DNA of 64,000 bases, from positions 1,116,001 to 1,180,000 of the forward strand of contig CP036352.1 of the NCBI GenBank assembly GCA_007753915.1, given 5' to 3'. The notes beneath the pieces are model-generated. The model did not search any database, was not told the DNA's origin, and saw only the letters and a program-made list of their open reading frames with translations. The translations under genes were made by a program, and so were the position numbers. Shown here one piece after another: positions 3,015 through 63,476 of this stretch. How positions within the stretch are numbered: the stretch's first letter is position 1; every line of letters begins with the position of its first letter. Source of the stretch: Phycisphaerae bacterium RAS2. GTDB lineage: Bacteria; Planctomycetota; Phycisphaerae; UBA1845; UTPLA1.

Positions 3015-3779
3015 CTAGTTCCGGGCAATCAGGTCTTCCATCGCAACGGCCTGCGCATCGGCCGGCGGCGTGAACTTGAATGTCTCATCCGTCAGCGACG
3101 GCGACAGGTCCCAGCCATCCATCACCGCGACGTATTGCGGCTGGTTGTGCTCTTCGATGTAGGTGATGACCAACTTGCGCGGCAGCGGCTGGCTGCCGGC
3201 GTCGATCCAGATCTGCCAGTCGATGTTCTCCTGCTGGAACAGCAGGTGGTGGCAGGGGGTTTCGCCGACCTGGTGCAGACCGAGATAAGTCCCGACTTCG
3301 ACATTCTCAACCAGCGAGTCGTACGTTTTGCCCACTAACAGATCCGCCATAGGCATGATCAGGTCGTATTCGTCGGCGAGGTAGTCGAGCATGGCGCCCA
3401 CGCTACCGGGCACAGACTCGGTGGCATAGGCGTGATGATCTTCATCGAAGAGCGTCAGCGTGCCGCCCTGGTACCAGGCGGACCAATACCCTTCGTCCGC
3501 GCGAGTCCGGGCTGACAGCCGATCAGGGCGTGACATGGCAATGTCACTTTCCCGGTTGAACTGGGCGAGCTGGCCCGTGTCGAGGACGCCGTCCATCGTC
3601 GCGGCCACGTGCACCCGAAGCGACTTGGCGCCGTCCAGCGTATGGCACATTCGCTTCAGGATCGGGTCGGCCTGTTCATCGATGTCGCGCGTCGCCGTGT
3701 GCGACTGGGCGCAGCCGACGGCCAACGACAACGCCCCTGCGAGCAAAGCGTTCAACGTCAACTTCCGTTTCAACACCAT
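3015..3779 (-). CDS. DUF2092 family lipoprotein, 254 aa
   Basis: The N-terminus MVLKRKLTLNALLAGALSLAVGC is a lipoprotein signal, with the cysteine of LAVGC as the likely lipidated residue. The rest is a full DUF2092 domain, and it aligns by eye with the C-terminal half of the next gene: both share a LADEYDLIMPMADLL-like segment, a CHHL motif and a WQIWIDAGSQPLPRK-like strand. It is the middle gene of a three-gene minus-strand operon with 10- and 21-bp gaps. The DUF2092 function is not established; a carrier or scaffold role in the envelope is inference. Confidence 0.85.
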   Translation of the reverse strand: MVLKRKLTLNALLAGALSLAVGCAQSHTATRDIDEQADPILKRMCHTLDGAKSLRVHVAATMDGVLDTGQLAQFNRESDIAMSRPDRLSARTRADEGYWSAWYQGGTLTLFDEDHHAYATESVPGSVGAMLDYLADEYDLIMPMADLLVGKTYDSLVENVEVGTYLGLHQVGETPCHHLLFQQENIDWQIWIDAGSQPLPRKLVITYIEEHNQPQYVAVMDGWDLSPSLTDETFKFTPPADAQAVAMEDLIARN

Positions 3780-3800
3780 GAGTGAACCTCCGGGAGCGGA

Positions 3801-5318
3801 TTAAAACTCGGTCTTGTGCTTCTGGGTCATGGCAGCGCGGATTTGAGCACGCCCGGCCTCAAGCTCCATCAGGGCCTGTGTCGCCTGCTGCAGGACGCGC
3901 GCCTTCTCCTCGGCCGTGGCGGCGCGTCGCGCGCGGGCGGCATTCTGCCGGTTGATTTCCGCATTGGGATCCACCGAGGCTTCCAGATCGCCCCAGGTGA
4001 CGTTCGCCGCCTCGGGGTTCATGACGCCTTCGGCCCGAGCCCGCGCCTGAAAGCCGCCGACGCCCAGCGCCGATCCGACTTCCAGCAGCTTCATGTTGAC
4101 ATCCAGGCCCCATTTAATCAGCTCGGGATCGACGTTCAGGATCGGCAGGCGGCCGATGTTCCGGGCATCCCGCGCGACATAGGTCGCGCCTGCGGTGAGC
4201 GACGAGGCCTCGCGCACACGCTTTCCGAATCCGTCGATGATCTTTGAAACCGCGCGATAGTATTGCTTCGACGCGGCTGCACTGGGGGCCGTTGCGACCG
4301 CGGGGTCCTTTGCCTTGTCCGCGGTGTCATTCGCGTCGGCAGCGCCTGATTCTTCAGTATGGCCGGGGTTGGGCGGATTGATGATGCTGCACAGCGCGCG
4401 AAGCCCTTCCGTAGAGAGCTTTCCGTTCGCGAGGATCGTCGTGCCCTTCGCGGAGAATTTCCATGTCTTGATGTCGTCGATCGACGCACCCACGCGCTCC
4501 ATCGCGTCGGTCAGCATGGGCTTGGCATACGACGCCAATTCATCGGTGGGCTGGCCAAAGTCGATCGTGCATTTGCCGCTGATCTCGCTACCGACCTCCA
4601 CGAACAGCGTCAACCCCTTCAGGCTGGCGACGATCTCGGAGATGCGACGAGCGTTGATGTCCTTGCCGGCGAGGCTCGCAAACTCATCCATCTCCAGCCG
4701 GCGGCGGCAGCGCTTCTCGCTGACGGCGTCCTGAAGATCAATCGCGAACATGTACTCCGTGTCCGGGACGATCTTCTCCACGGCTGCCCGAAGATACGGC
4801 GTTAGCGCGCCGTCATCACCATCGGTCCGGCCGCACCATCGCGAGGCAAATTGTCGATCGGCCGGGCAAACAACGCCGAGCATCGTCGCTTCGAGGCGGA
4901 TGAAGTAGGCGTTCGCCGGCGTCCAGGCCGCCATGCGATTGCCCATGCCCTCGGTGAAGCCGTTCGCGTTCTTGGCGATGCGATCCATCGAGAGCGTCTT
5001 GCCGACGCGAATCACCGACGCCTCCCAGATCGGCTCCATGTTCGTCGGCTCCAGCCATGATGCCATCATGACATGCTTGGCATCGGGGGGCACGAACAAC
5101 GGCCCCACGGAATAGGCGTCCGACAGCTTGCTGCGCCAGTCTTCTTCCTTGCCCAGCTTGCTGTTGATGAGGCCGTCGACATTGATGAAGGCGATGGCAT
5201 TTGCCCCGGCAGGCAGTCGCCTGGCCAATGCCGAAGCGTCTCCCAATGCCGTTCCGGCGATCATCAGGAGGATGACCAGGCTTCCGATCCACGCTTGTCG
5301 TCTTGCAACTGCAGACAT
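3801..5318 (-). CDS. Exported protein of unknown function, 505 aa
   Basis: The ATG at 5318 follows AAAGGAG with good spacing and opens a signal peptide (QAWIGSLVILLMIAGTALG). An upstream in-frame ATG at 5351 lacks comparable support. The mature protein begins LARRLPAGANAIAFINVD, a pattern I associate with planctomycete exported proteins of about 500 residues with no assigned function. A low-complexity Ala/Asp-rich linker lies near residues 320-350 and the C-terminus is a charged helix rich in Ala, Arg and Glu. It is the first gene of the DUF2092 operon, so the three products probably act together in the envelope. Confidence 0.75.
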   Translation of the reverse strand: MSAVARRQAWIGSLVILLMIAGTALGDASALARRLPAGANAIAFINVDGLINSKLGKEEDWRSKLSDAYSVGPLFVPPDAKHVMMASWLEPTNMEPIWEASVIRVGKTLSMDRIAKNANGFTEGMGNRMAAWTPANAYFIRLEATMLGVVCPADRQFASRWCGRTDGDDGALTPYLRAAVEKIVPDTEYMFAIDLQDAVSEKRCRRRLEMDEFASLAGKDINARRISEIVASLKGLTLFVEVGSEISGKCTIDFGQPTDELASYAKPMLTDAMERVGASIDDIKTWKFSAKGTTILANGKLSTEGLRALCSIINPPNPGHTEESGAADANDTADKAKDPAVATAPSAAASKQYYRAVSKIIDGFGKRVREASSLTAGATYVARDARNIGRLPILNVDPELIKWGLDVNMKLLEVGSALGVGGFQARARAEGVMNPEAANVTWGDLEASVDPNAEINRQNAARARRAATAEEKARVLQQATQALMELEAGRAQIRAAMTQKHKTEF

Positions 5319-59735: not shown

Positions 59736-59886
59736 TGCTCGCTGCGCCGGTGGTTTCAGTCGCAAGGCCGGAATCGGTGCATCCGTTTCGCATCCTTGGT
59801 AAGGTTTCTATACGGTTTCGTGCCCAGAGACGATGAAAACTGGCCGTGGGGGTGACTTATGTTCCCATTTGCGCTACTCTAGCCGG

Positions 59887-61172
59887 GTGAAACACCGTTT
59901 GTTTCACGATCGTCAGAATCATGCGAACGCGTGGCCTGACGTCTGAATCGTGGGATCGGACAACCGGTAAACCTGACCACCAATCAGGCTAAGGAGGCGG
60001 AGTTCATCACCCGCCATGTTCGAGTGCTCGTAGCGCTGGATGCCAGGAGACTGGCTCGTCCAGTGCGAGGGAGGCTCGGCTGAGTAATCCCAAGCTTTTG
60101 GAGTAATCCAGCCGTTCGATCCCATACACATCATGGGCGAGTCGCTCGTACCTGGCCGCGCCGTGGTTCGCCACGGGGGCAAGCCTCGTCGAAAGCGTCC
60201 GCTTCGTTCTTTGAATATGAAAACTGGGCGACCGGGACAAACTCGTGCTTTTGCGCGAGCCGGATCAGCCAAAGTGGGTGATGCCGCCACACGGCGGCTA
60301 ATCCCCCTGCGGGGTTCGGGACCGTCTGACGCACGCAAGTGCGGCAGCGGCCCGTTCAACGCCAGCCCGGGCAGGGAGCTTGTCTGCGGTGACGCAGACG
60401 ACCGGCGCGATGATAAGCGTCGGCATTCCGCTTCAAACGGCGGATGGTGAAAAGCTCAACTGCGAAAGGCGGGAAACCGCTTCTGGGTGAGATCGATCGG
60501 AGACGTGCCGAACTGCGATAGAAAGACCTTCGCTGACGGGTAAGGGGAGCTTCTAGATTCGTACCCCGAAATCGTCCGTCATGATTGCGGACGAAACGAT
60601 GTCAACGGCGGAAGCCGTCGGCATACAGCGATGTGAGCAACGTGTGCGGGAGAGACGCACATGATGCTTCCAGGTCAAGCGACGTGAACGATCGATCGAA
60701 GACTGGTTCTAACCGGGGAAGGACTCTGGCAGCCGGGGTGATGCCCGGTGCCCGCTAGTCGAGCGGGTGCTTCAAACGCCGGAGTCTGGGAGCGGGGCCT
60801 CAGTAGGAGCACGCGGAAGCGTGGTGGCAAAGCGGCAAGGCAGTCGCGATGCCGTTCGAGTGTTACGGGTGGTGCCGGGCACAAGATCGACGACGAAAGG
60901 GCCGACGAGCAATTTCCCATGTTTGCAGACGTGTCGGCGCGGCGCCGGGGCAGGAGAGGCCTGCCTCGGCCCGCTTCGATGGGTCGGAAGACAGCCAATG
61001 CGGTCAAACGAGGACCCTCGGGAGAGGGCCGTCGTTTGGCAGCGGAATGACGATCCACAGTCGGGGTGTACCCGTCGGTGGATCGTTGGTTTTTACCCGC
61101 AACCGCTATGTGAACGCGGTTGCGATCATCGTCGTGCGAAGCACGCCGGTTTCTCGAACGAAATCGAGAACC
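59887..61172 (+). ncRNA. Large ornate structured RNA candidate (about 1.3 kb)
   Basis: No frame in either direction looks protein-like, but perfect hairpins follow one another: GTGAAAC/GTTTCAC (59887-59907), CCGTGG-TTCG-CCACGG (60161), GCCGCC-ACAC-GGCGGC (60283), CGCAC-GCAA-GTGCG (60330), GTCTGCG-GTGA-CGCAGAC (60382), GCGG-GAAA-CCGC (60469), TCGTCCG/CGGACGA (60572-60594), ACGGC-GGAA-GCCGT (60605), CCCGCT/AGCGGG (60751-60767), CACGC-GGAA-GCGTG (60810), an 11-bp stem at 60944-60970, CAAACGA/TCGTTTG enclosing CCCTC-GGGA-GAGGG (61005-61038), CGATCCAC/GTGGATCG (61051-61085) and CGCAACCGC/GCGGTTGCG (61098-61124). Six loops are GNRA and one UUCG, only when read on the plus strand. Exact ends and function are unknown. 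Confidence 0.65.
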
Positions 61173-61458
61173 TATGTGCATGAAGCACGATGATGAATGC
61201 GTGTTGCTACGCAATAGGCAACTGCGATGAATGAATCTAGCGCGGGCGGCGTGAGCGGCAAGGGTCGCAGGCGATGGAGCGACCGAATGCCGCATTTCGC
61301 GAGGGCGAGCTGATTCAAACAAGGCATGACTCATGCGTAGCGAACGCGATGGTTTATTGAAAGGAGGTGGTTCTGCACGCTGAGCCGAGAATCGTGAGAC
61401 GTACCGCGGGGCACGGCGTGGAGGAGGTTTGTGTATCGAGCGAAAGGAGGTGATTCGC
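61173..61458. other. Linker between structured RNA and companion ORF
   Basis: About 290 bp with weaker structure. It contains a first GAAAGGAGGT element near 61359-61368, followed at five bases by a CTG that opens a 26-codon frame ending at 61453 inside the ribosome binding site of the next gene. This may be a leader frame or chance. Confidence 0.4.
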
Positions 61459-61680
61459 ATGGGTTGGTGGCGCACGAGGAGCGGTAGCGTCATCGGCGAC
61501 AGTCCGGCCGACATCATCGAGGAATTCGATGAACGGTATTGGCCGGAGCCGACGAATATTCCGCCTGACGTGCGGGCACGCATCGTTGCGTGCTATCAAG
61601 AGGATTTCGACCGGGAGCCGACAATGCAGGAGCTTCGCGACTTGCTGGCGTTCTGCGGTCCGGGTCCAGAGAAGGATTGA
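61459..61680 (+). CDS. Small acidic protein next to structured RNA, 73 aa
   Basis: GAAAGGAGGTGATTCGC, almost a perfect anti-16S complement, precedes the ATG. The sequence MGWWRTRSGSVIGDSPADI, DERYWPEPTNIPPDVRARIV and PTMQELRDLLAFCGPGP suggests a compact helical protein of about 70 residues. I do not recognise a family, although the start resembles small proteins of unknown function with a GD-x-PADI motif. It lies between the RNA and the 222-aa ORF and is probably co-transcribed with both. Confidence 0.7.
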   Translation: MGWWRTRSGSVIGDSPADIIEEFDERYWPEPTNIPPDVRARIVACYQEDFDREPTMQELRDLLAFCGPGPEKD

Positions 61681-61712
61681 AGCTCGAACGAAAGGAGGTT
61701 TAAGCAGGCTTC

Positions 61713-61736
61713 GCGGGTTGTGCCAGAACAACCCGC
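61713..61736 (+). promoter_or_regulatory. Perfect hairpin between the two companion ORFs
   Basis: GCGGGTTG and CAACCCGC flank an eight-base loop and are followed by ATTTT, then the ribosome binding site of the next gene. An orphan GAAAGGAGGT lies 14 bases before it. It could act as an attenuator, a processing site, or a weak terminator. Confidence 0.55.
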
Positions 61737-61756
61737 ATTTTGGAAGGAGAAAATGC

Positions 61757-62425
61757 ATGGAGTATCGTCGCGTCGCAACATCGGTGGAGGGATTCGTTCA
61801 GCAACTTGCCGTCGCGTACATCACGCATGGCTATTGGTTCTACGTGGCCGGGGAGATTCCGGAAGGGAAAGATCCGGCCGTAGTTGATTCGAAGCTGATC
61901 GAGCGGTACGGCATCACCATCTCGAAGTGGGCACGCTGCCGTCGCAAGAAGCAGGGCTTGGCGAATATGCAGTACCTCCGGCATGAGCGATTCTTCGTGC
62001 TCCTCGCGACAAAGGGGCAGCACGAGTTCTTTGAGCGCGAGCGGGCATCGTTCCGCGACGTTCGCCGCGTGCCGATCAAGTTCGCCGGCTACAGCATCGC
62101 CTGTAAGAAGGGACGCGATGGACGATGGCACGCATCGGTCAGAATCTCCCGTGAACATCATGCTGGCCTGAAAGCGTTGCTCGTGGAGATCGGGCTACGC
62201 CGTGGAACGAAAGCTGTCGCTCACGAGTTCGCGAGGCTTCAGTACCAACCTTATGCGCCCGTCAGACGGCAGATGCTTGGAACACTTCGCGCCGTGAATC
62301 GGGCGAGGCGGACGGCAGGGATGGGAATGGTGGGAGCTGATTGCCTGCCTCTGAGACGGCGGATTGAGAACCCGTTTGGTGAAGCGGTGGCTGACGCCTC
62401 TTCTGTAGAGTTTGGCAATCTTTGA
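61757..62425 (+). CDS. Basic protein of unknown function next to structured RNA, 222 aa
   Basis: GGAAGGAG precedes ATG 61757. The protein is basic, without signal peptide or membrane helix: GYWFYVAGEIPEGKDP, KLIERYGITISKWARCRRKKQGLANMQYLRHERFFVLLATKG, RRVPIKFAGYSIACKKG and YAPVRRQMLGTLRAVNRARRTAG. The two Arg/Lys-rich helices suit RNA or DNA binding. I recall similar uncharacterised proteins in other planctomycetes but cannot name a family. Position after the structured RNA suggests it is its protein partner. Confidence 0.7.
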   Translation: MEYRRVATSVEGFVQQLAVAYITHGYWFYVAGEIPEGKDPAVVDSKLIERYGITISKWARCRRKKQGLANMQYLRHERFFVLLATKGQHEFFERERASFRDVRRVPIKFAGYSIACKKGRDGRWHASVRISREHHAGLKALLVEIGLRRGTKAVAHEFARLQYQPYAPVRRQMLGTLRAVNRARRTAGMGMVGADCLPLRRRIENPFGEAVADASSVEFGNL

Positions 62426-62468: not shown

Positions 62469-63476
62469 GTGGAGCGTTTTGACGTGCCCAAGGCCAGCCC
62501 GAAACCAGTTCGACTCAACGATTTCTTGACCGTCAGCCTAGCGGCGGAGTTTCTTGGCGTCTCTCCATCGACTCTCCGAAACTGGGACCGGGGCGGCAAG
62601 CTGCGGGCGATTCGTCATCCGGTGATCGCCGCAGCGGACGAGTTTCAGGATCTAAACGCCATCGGTAGCAATGCGGCTGTCGATTGGCTTCGATCCGTTG
62701 TTGCGCCAACATCGCTGAACCAGAATCACCGAACAACTTGCGCTGACTTACTGGCAAGTGCCGCTGACCTGCGGGAAGGACGACCGCTTCCGAGTCGAGA
62801 CCGTTGCAAGATTCTGTCAGCGGCAAACCCGAATGCGGCTGCTGGGATAATTGCCTGCAATCTGGTGTGGTTCGGGATTGCGGGTACCGTGGTGTTAACA
62901 CCGACCGGGCCAGACAGCTCCGCCTTCGTCAAAAAAGTAATCGCGAGACAACAGGCGAAGTCGATCAAGTCGACCGCGCTCAAAGGGGCAGAAGTCGGTC
63001 CCTTTCGTATCGACTGGGAGTCCCATGCGTCGCTCGACGCCTCTCGGCTTGTGGAGTGTCTCAACCTTCAGGCTGGTGCTACTGACGTAGACACCCGCAC
63101 TCTGTGCGTTCCCCAGTCTGTTCGTGGCGGCCGCTCACTCCAAGAGTGGGTTGATCGCCAAAGACGAGTCCTTGGGCGCGATCGCATTCCGGTGCAGGTA
63201 CTCCAAGTGGAAGCGTCGAGGGTGTGCCAGCAGCTCCGTGCAATGCGACCGACGAGCGAAGATCGCCTTGTATCGATGACACTTCATCAAGCGAAAAACA
63301 GGGAGTTCGACCGGGTGATCGTATTGTGGCCGTACGAGATATCGGGAGCGCCGGAGAAGCTTCGTCGTCTGCTCTACAATGGAATTACACGTGCGCGCCA
63401 GCGGGCGATAATCGTCGTACAGAATCCACCCACAAGCAACCCGAGTCGCCTCACGGTTGCTCCGTTCGCGGTGTGA
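62469..63476 (+). CDS. Chimera of MerR-type HTH and UvrD-like helicase C-terminal part, 335 aa
   Basis: The first 50 residues hold a MerR/excisionase-type HTH (LTVSLAAEFLGVSPSTLRNWDRGGKLRAIRHPV). Right after it, ADEFQDLNAIGSNAAVDWL is helicase motif II of superfamily I, TSLNQNHRTTC a motif-III/IV region, SMTLHQAKNREFDRVIVLWP motif V and RRLLYNGITRARQRAIIVV motif VI. The Walker A motif I and the intervening N-terminal ATPase part are missing, so helicase activity is unlikely. Start is GTG 62469. It seems to be two gene fragments joined at an HPV sequence, either a relic or a new regulator. Confidence 0.7.
   Translation: MERFDVPKASPKPVRLNDFLTVSLAAEFLGVSPSTLRNWDRGGKLRAIRHPVIAAADEFQDLNAIGSNAAVDWLRSVVAPTSLNQNHRTTCADLLASAADLREGRPLPSRDRCKILSAANPNAAAGIIACNLVWFGIAGTVVLTPTGPDSSAFVKKVIARQQAKSIKSTALKGAEVGPFRIDWESHASLDASRLVECLNLQAGATDVDTRTLCVPQSVRGGRSLQEWVDRQRRVLGRDRIPVQVLQVEASRVCQQLRAMRPTSEDRLVSMTLHQAKNREFDRVIVLWPYEISGAPEKLRRLLYNGITRARQRAIIVVQNPPTSNPSRLTVAPFAV

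Follow-up and report, generated by a model that had tools for sequence, protein, structure and literature searches.

The window, the whole 64,000-nucleotide stretch of DNA analysed here, carries a cassette in which a circularly permuted (CP) group II ribozyme is followed on the same strand by an acidic 73-aa protein, a conserved hairpin and a basic 222-aa protein identified by profile comparison as a distant AcpG. We read these parts together as a ribonucleoprotein cassette in which the acidic protein is an accessory and AcpG would be a displaced, catalytically dead maturase, a reading to which we assign a probability of roughly 0.68. We know of no role for CP group II ribozymes. The association of AcpG with CP group II RNA has been on record since 2021 (Roth et al.; PMC8637638), and the pair as a whole is thus not new; the present analysis adds to that RNA–protein pair an explanation at the level of the fold, a likely operator and a further protein that is clade-specific.

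Locus organization and coding sequences

The elements of the locus lie in the order CP group II RNA, 73-aa ORF, hairpin and acpG, with the following coordinates:

59887–61172, + strand: CP group II ribozyme RNA (nhmmer homology 59882–61176), from nhmmer across loci and the D5/D6 covariance model R1
60031–60125, + strand: D5 and D6, at the 5' part of the ribozyme (RF00029; covariation)
60126–60225, + strand: predicted circle, between D6 ending ...CCCAT and GGGCGACCGGGA
60226–61172, + strand: D1–D4 part, starting with the 5' splice-site motif GGGCG (nhmmer homology, splice-site motif)
61459–61680, + strand: ORF 1, 73 aa, ATG to stop, behind AAAGGAGGTGAT (61443–61454)
61713–61736, + strand: conserved hairpin GCGGGTTGT-GCCAGA-ACAACCCGC, a proposed AcpG operator (pattern counts, double changes)
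61757–62425, + strand: ORF 2, 222 aa, ATG to stop, behind GGAAGGAG; distant AcpG homologue by profile comparison, with a compact RT-like (palm plus thumb) predicted fold

The initial annotation had described two ORFs directly after a structured RNA and behind ribosome binding sites, an arrangement that holds as stated (AAAGGAGGTGAT and GGAAGGAG), and had called the 222-aa protein basic, in agreement with its net charge of +19 (+14 to +29 across 59 aligned sequences). The 73-aa protein has a net charge of −8 (−4 to −10 across 15 sequences). Median pairwise dN/dS is 0.17 for the 222-aa protein (45 pairs from 10 of the 74 loci gathered here) and 0.23 for the 73-aa protein (45 pairs from 10 of the 16 small-ORF loci); both ORFs are real and conserved, and purifying selection acts on both. 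GAAAGGAGGT is present three times around the small ORF (61359, 61442 and 61690), with an obvious start codon following the middle copy only. An ORF at 62469–63476 may be a remnant or a fusion: it joins an N-terminal MerR/excisionase-like HTH to the C-terminal end, and no other part, of a UvrD-type helicase.

Neither protein matched Pfam at E 0.1 or NCBIfam, and their homologues gave only sub-threshold Pfam matches (best E 0.012). PHROGs yielded no match for the 222-aa protein and a single weak one for the 73-aa protein (E 0.061), while PADLOC returned none for the 222-aa protein and none for one homologue of the 73-aa protein.

The 74 loci were all gathered via the 222-aa protein and comprise the window, a second copy in the same genome, four plasmid loci (drawn from seven matched plasmid records), 61 loci from named genomes and seven from the window's phylum. 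The named-genome loci were found by two peptide patterns taken from three close sequences, which favours near relatives.

A circularly permuted group II ribozyme

Rfam model RF00029 (D5/D6) matches 60031–60125 with 46.3 bits, in the 5' part of the structured region; in group II introns, D5 and D6 sit at the 3' end. The matched segment shows an AGC triad, a GAGA tetraloop, a bulge and a D6 ending in CCCAT. D5 and D6 precede D1–D4, the latter assigned by nhmmer homology among the gathered loci together with the GGGCG start, and across loci the 3' and 5' splice-site motifs (NU and GGGCG) are reversed and located between D6 and D1. Covariation accompanies this arrangement, with double-sided changes in 21 of 27 consensus D5–D6 pairs among 38 sequences from the gathered loci. 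These features place the RNA in the CP group II class that Roth et al. described in 2021 (PMC8637638), and an unknown RNA class, considered as a candidate, was rejected on this identification.

Model R1 scores the window RNA at 105.5 bits, the window itself being one of the 38 training sequences, and also finds the element of Polaromonas plasmid pPNAP05 (35.5 bits), which was absent from training. According to Roth et al., the pPNAP05 ribozyme was tested biochemically and releases a circle of 32 nt (PMC8637638); our splice-site rule, which cuts after D6 and before GGGCG, likewise gives 32 nt for this element. Applied to the window, the rule predicts a 100-nt circle (60126–60225), slightly longer than the published range of 15–86 nt (PMC8637638), and applied to the second copy in the same genome it predicts one of 16 nt. 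A nearer GGGCGA at offset 9 in the window was set aside, as the consensus that should follow it is missing. The match of R1 to Thermus pTT8 is weak (15.4 bits, E 0.043), and the kinship of the Thermus RNA therefore rests on its description in PMC8637638.

The 222-aa protein as a distant AcpG

Roth et al. gave the name AcpG to Thermus TTHC007, a protein associated with CP group II RNA for which they reported no detectable homology to a known class (PMC8637638). BLASTP of the 222-aa protein against TTHC007 found nothing. Profile comparison by hhalign with TTHC007 and four relatives gave a probability of 88 (E 2.8e-6) over 168 columns, with a score of 46.6 against a maximum of 23.0 in 199 column shuffles and one reversal. 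A bridge is provided by hypothetical proteins encoded divergently to CP RNAs on Burkholderia glumae and Sulfuriferula plasmids, which match the family HMM at E 1.6e-8 and 2.5e-10; a third plasmid examined, from Thiothrix unzii, gave no AcpG match. These Proteobacterial proteins align by hhalign to the 222-aa family with a probability of 96.5 (E 9.3e-10) and to the Thermus proteins with 94.7, such that homology to TTHC007 can be routed through them at E 9.3e-10 and 5.6e-8. On these profile alignments, the 222-aa protein is a distant AcpG. The earlier statement that the two ORFs match no family thus stands for Pfam and NCBIfam and gives way for the 222-aa protein, whose family was linked to CP group II RNA in the 2021 account. 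A resemblance of AcpG to PDB entry 6xxv (E 0.017) was taken as chance.

Linkage of the RNA and AcpG

The RNA lies at most 2 kb upstream of acpG in 68 of the 74 loci, at a gap of 83–1979 nt, and every matched RNA in these loci is on the acpG strand; the count includes one locus (L008) whose RNA comes from model R1 (35.3 bits). Where the upstream DNA extends to 2.4 kb or more, the figure is 55 of 57 loci, the exceptions being L050 and L056. These two, L077 and the short contigs L033, L040 and L046, each with less than 470 nt of upstream DNA, make up the six loci without RNA in this interval. In L056, a D5/D6 lies ~6 kb upstream of acpG; no RNA was located in L050 or L077, and R1 finds none in the genome of L077. 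On a Calothrix plasmid (L011), two CP-type D5/D6 elements (1628–1731 and 3779–3873) lie upstream of one AcpG gene.

The converse search, starting from the RNA, covered 392 genomes of the window's phylum, 38 of which gave any match to R1, and identified 10 CP-type places (at least 65 bits) in nine genomes. Nine of these have the independently found protein within 2 kb, and at the tenth the contig ends 396 nt after D6; starting from the RNA or from the protein leads to the same places in these genomes. We interpreted places scoring 28.7–46.6 bits as canonical group II introns; in 9 of 21 such loci (L104–L124) a YADD protein was seen. Nine equal weak D5/D6 matches (36 bits) in one genome (G389) probably represent a family of canonical group II introns, and the window's own genome holds no D5/D6 other than the two CP ones under R1 with stricter filters. 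In 14 genomes behind the loci, including other phyla, three further R1 places reach at least 50 bits; two have the protein downstream, in one case in two frames, and the contig of the third ends 873 nt after D6. The two-frame case (L183, G397 C227), in which two open frames adjoining the CP RNA match AcpG, is possibly a broken copy.

In this branch of the family, the 222-aa protein is linked to the CP RNA in fixed order and strand. The initial annotation had proposed that both ORFs are linked to the RNA, to be judged by counting homologues within 2 kb of a related RNA. The count upholds the proposal for AcpG (68 of 74 loci; 9 of 10 RNA places), with only 2 of 57 loci lacking RNA within 2 kb where wide occurrence without it would have spoken against the link, and not for the 73-aa protein, which is found in 16 of 74 loci and is no constant part.

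Roth et al. report many CP RNAs without nearby acpG and caution that linkage need not imply binding (PMC8637638). The two could merely be neighbours in plasmid rep/par backbones, AcpG acting as a plasmid regulator or replication accessory whose RT-like fold serves DNA or another RNA. As raw counts, Rep-like or ParA-like genes indeed occur in the fetched flanks of 31 of the 74 loci, and of 28 of the 54 whose upstream sequence reaches at least 3.5 kb, and the protein is divergent to the RNA in Thermus (PMC8637638) and on the two Proteobacterial plasmids. However, RNA and AcpG occur together even where no Rep-like or ParA-like genes flank them, as in both copies of the window's genome; none of the 16 small-ORF loci has such genes in its flanks; and the RNA-first search leads to the same places as the protein-first search. 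We therefore regard mere neighbourhood as unlikely and retain the functional pairing of AcpG and ribozyme. Among the flanking genes themselves, one ParA-like member has strong Pfam matches. For the Rep-like family upstream of the RNA (L034, L035, L060, L082 and others; 21 loci, open frames of up to 515 codons), neither Pfam nor the PDB gave a credible match, and the family's name rests on a single annotation, K2D_46550, 'Replication initiator protein A'.

Predicted fold and absent YADD aspartates of AcpG

An AlphaFold model of AcpG was built from 59 sequences, an alignment without L069, L080 and L081 (split or short frames) and without the loci gathered outside the related-locus search, and reached a pLDDT of 90.1. 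In a Foldseek search against the PDB, the retron Eco8 RT ranked first and a group II intron RT fourth, with low TM-scores (0.27 for the best) and all matches at E above 0.001. VIA-align, run on the 1000 best Foldseek matches, gave a consistent list: of rows 1–8, seven are group II intron RT entries and one is the group II-like G2L4 RT (Z 8.4–10.1 over all eight), led by 8h2h_D (Z 10.1, 188 residues, 3.8 Å) and including 6ar1_A (Z 8.4). Spliceosome entries follow (Z 8.2), whose chain A we take to be Prp8, then the Prp8:Aar2 crystal structure 4i43_B (Z 8.1), DRT9, retron and HCV polymerase entries. The model match covers AcpG residues 1–204. Unmatched models usually reach a best Z of 7–8, and the 8–10 of AcpG is only moderately above this; given these modest values, we place weight on the consistency of the list, the coverage of residues 1–204 and the prior expectation of a maturase partner.

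Sequence profiles point weakly in the same direction. A profile of 26 group II IEPs from the phylum scored 34.8 against AcpG (E 4.4e-4, probability 33), with none of 300 shuffles as high (maximum 30.2), and a trimmed 9-IEP profile scored 32.7 against a maximum of 27.0 in 400 shuffles; IEP profile matches reach probabilities of 21–38 only. The trimmed and 26-IEP versions were used in place of the untrimmed alignment, which was unusable as a control (shuffles up to 140.8). Thermus AcpG alone and Proteobacterial AcpG alone gave no match to IEPs (E 0.38 and 0.025), and Pfam RT or maturase models none to the 222-aa protein at E 0.1.

In the IEP alignment, YLRHERFFVLLAT aligns with the RYADD box and IKFAGYSI with the FLGY box. 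The YADD position corresponds to residues 76–79, which read HERF in the window, and in none of the 59 sequences is the aspartate pair present at 78–79. An FFDD string occurs in L055 and L065, in both outside residues 70–85, and in L086, which is not among the 59. At motif A, residue 33 (placed by eye) is without Asp in the 59 rows, and the low-confidence IEP alignment puts the motif in a gap. Pfam detected no endonuclease domain in the 222-aa protein, and the window's own genome has no GIIM match anywhere.

The structure prediction proposed in the initial annotation as a check for a nucleic-acid-binding fold thus points to one of the group II intron RT/Prp8 type, and the guess made there of a basic RNA-binding partner stands up well. 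It is well supported by the model comparisons that AcpG has the predicted palm–thumb fold of group II intron RTs, cut down to ~205 residues, with YADD replaced. From the fold list, the weak IEP profile agreement, the loss of YADD and the lack of GIIM in its own genome, we read AcpG as probably a miniature, catalytically dead maturase; we nevertheless leave it outside the group II IEPs, since it lacks defining features of that class. The predicted RT-like fold is new relative to Roth et al. 2021, in which no fold is given. Searches of the open-access literature for AcpG and TTHC007 listed only that paper as apparently relevant, and a prior remark on the RT fold may exist elsewhere.

A conserved hairpin upstream of acpG

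The hairpin was first seen in the window, between the small ORF and acpG, and in the second copy. A strict hairpin pattern, drawn from the same 74 loci in which it was then counted, occurs in 34 of them, 39–164 nt upstream of acpG. Of 1480 shuffled windows 1 contains it, and of 1554 windows from elsewhere in these loci 5 do. Its stem shows 65 double-change cells, against 0 of 500 shuffles; the alignment holds only rows chosen for pairing, so that its cells are 100% paired by selection, and the counts of the pattern and of TGTGCC are the better test. Upstream of acpG, 50 of the 74 loci contain TGTGCC; the same string is present in 119 of the 1554 other windows. In the group II intron Ll.LtrB, domain IVa is bound by its maturase LtrA, which controls its own translation there. 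The hairpin resembles domain IVa in position and may be an AcpG-binding operator.

The 73-aa acidic protein

The small protein family is defined by the motif MGWW..GxVIGD, and a homologous small ORF lies upstream of acpG in 16 of the 74 loci, between RNA and acpG in 15 of them; the sixteenth (L033) is on a contig too short for the RNA. Among the 392 genomes, five had a small-protein match at E 0.001, of which only the two copies of the window's own genome are trusted. On the AcpG tree, which includes 72 of the 74 loci and 15 of the 16 with the small ORF, its distribution takes three changes to explain and is strongly clustered (0 of 500 shuffles). The 73-aa protein is accordingly a clade-specific accessory and not a core part. 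Its model reached a pLDDT of 88.8, and in the fold search no Foldseek match fell below E 0.88, while VIA-align peaked at Z 3.8. A tblastn search of plasmids for this protein found nothing.

Two apparent kinships of the small protein were discarded. One, to PSD1/DUF1553, was rejected on four weak matches (23.5–26.2 bits) lying inside frames of 760–1103 aa; one homologue touches PSD1 at E 0.094, and we read the likeness as a shared C-terminal helix-pair motif. The other, to the designed proteins 8cwy_A and 8cws_A (residues ~29–63, E ~4e-6, with no stretch passing alone), was taken as chance, probably a generic helix pair.

The opposite charges of the two proteins, together with the plasmid setting, the AcpG-tree relatives in several phyla and the retron and DRT RTs among the fold matches, would also suit a toxin–antitoxin-like or abortive-infection module, in which structured RNA, acidic protein and basic protein form an addiction or defence unit on mobile elements. 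We hold this to be improbable: PADLOC gave no match, 58 of the 74 loci gave no small ORF, AcpG was not found in phage records, viral contigs held no relatives of either protein, and YADD is lost.

Second copy, genomic setting and distribution

A second, diverged copy of the whole cassette is present in the same genome (G000 C1:2186932–2189105; L006), the matched DNA pieces of the two copies being 69–74% identical. A DUF3105 gene precedes the window's copy (Pfam) and a similar-looking ORF the second (by eye). Both copies also have heavy-metal-type genes in their vicinity, assigned by Pfam for the window and by eye for L006. On the AcpG tree, the window groups with Planctomycetota loci and with one Nitrospira and one Deltaproteobacteria MAG, in which the close relatives reach 75–79% identity, a grouping across phyla that suggests transfer, with the usual caution for MAGs.

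Two diverged copies in one genome and close relatives in MAGs of other phyla are what a self-mobile retroelement might leave behind. Such an element is disfavoured and has only a very slight chance of being correct: the YADD aspartates are absent and Pfam shows no endonuclease domain, the two copies differ as given above, and splicing does not free the element, since according to Roth et al. the splice sites are internal to the RNA (PMC8637638). A retroelement with its own active RT was likewise rejected for want of YADD. The cassette looks instead like cargo of plasmids and integrated elements. Of the mobile or regulatory ribonucleoprotein unit suggested in the initial annotation, the idea of a unit fares well, given the linkage, and self-mobility is not indicated.

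Proposed model and comparison with known systems

In the model that we favour, AcpG would be the displaced, catalytically dead maturase of the permuted ribozyme, binding the CP RNA and stabilizing its active fold, in a role comparable to that of Prp8 around the core of the spliceosome. The RNA thus held would back-splice out a small circle, leaving a branched RNA, while the hairpin before acpG would serve as an AcpG-binding operator and the acidic 73-aa protein would tune or chaperone the basic AcpG. ParA-like and Rep-like genes are frequent nearby and hint at a function in maintaining plasmids or in controlling RNA on these elements. A more specific proposal, which we consider somewhat favoured over its negation, is that AcpG is a bacterial Prp8-like protein: a non-catalytic RT shrunk to its palm–thumb core, split from the intron and turned into a dedicated CP-ribozyme scaffold with its own hairpin operator, carried in different phyla by plasmids and integrated elements. 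Should AcpG prove to be a dead maturase, the CP ribozyme class would have its missing intron protein. Nature would then offer a second example, besides Prp8, of a group II-type RNA active site held by an inactive RT, and how CP ribozymes act in cells could be addressed by simple binding and splicing assays.

The closest known system is the CP group II ribozyme with AcpG of Roth et al. (PMC8637638), which shares D5–D6 at the 5' part, the reversed splice sites, GGGCG and a nearby AcpG gene. The systems described here differ from that account in that the RNA is always on the acpG strand and at most 2 kb upstream in 68 of 74 loci, with a hairpin before acpG in 34 of 74 and the 73-aa protein in 16 of 74.

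Group II IEPs such as LtrA and the GsI-IIC RT share with AcpG the predicted palm–thumb fold, a basic character, partnership with a group II-type ribozyme and alignable RT5- and RT7-like stretches. AcpG, in contrast, is about half their size or less, has lost the YADD aspartates and shows no N-terminal finger part or endonuclease; its gene lies outside and downstream of the matched RNA, whereas the IEP gene lies within intron domain IV. Domain IVa of Ll.LtrB is likewise a stem–loop near the maturase start codon, but the putative operator hairpin described here lies outside the matched ribozyme and 39–164 nt upstream of acpG.

In Prp8, an RT fold that lacks polymerase activity sits next to an RNA active site resembling that of group II introns. 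Its RT-like core shares the RT fold predicted for AcpG (VIA-align Z 8.1 to the Prp8:Aar2 entry), although Prp8 is a very large eukaryotic protein and AcpG a 222-aa bacterial protein.
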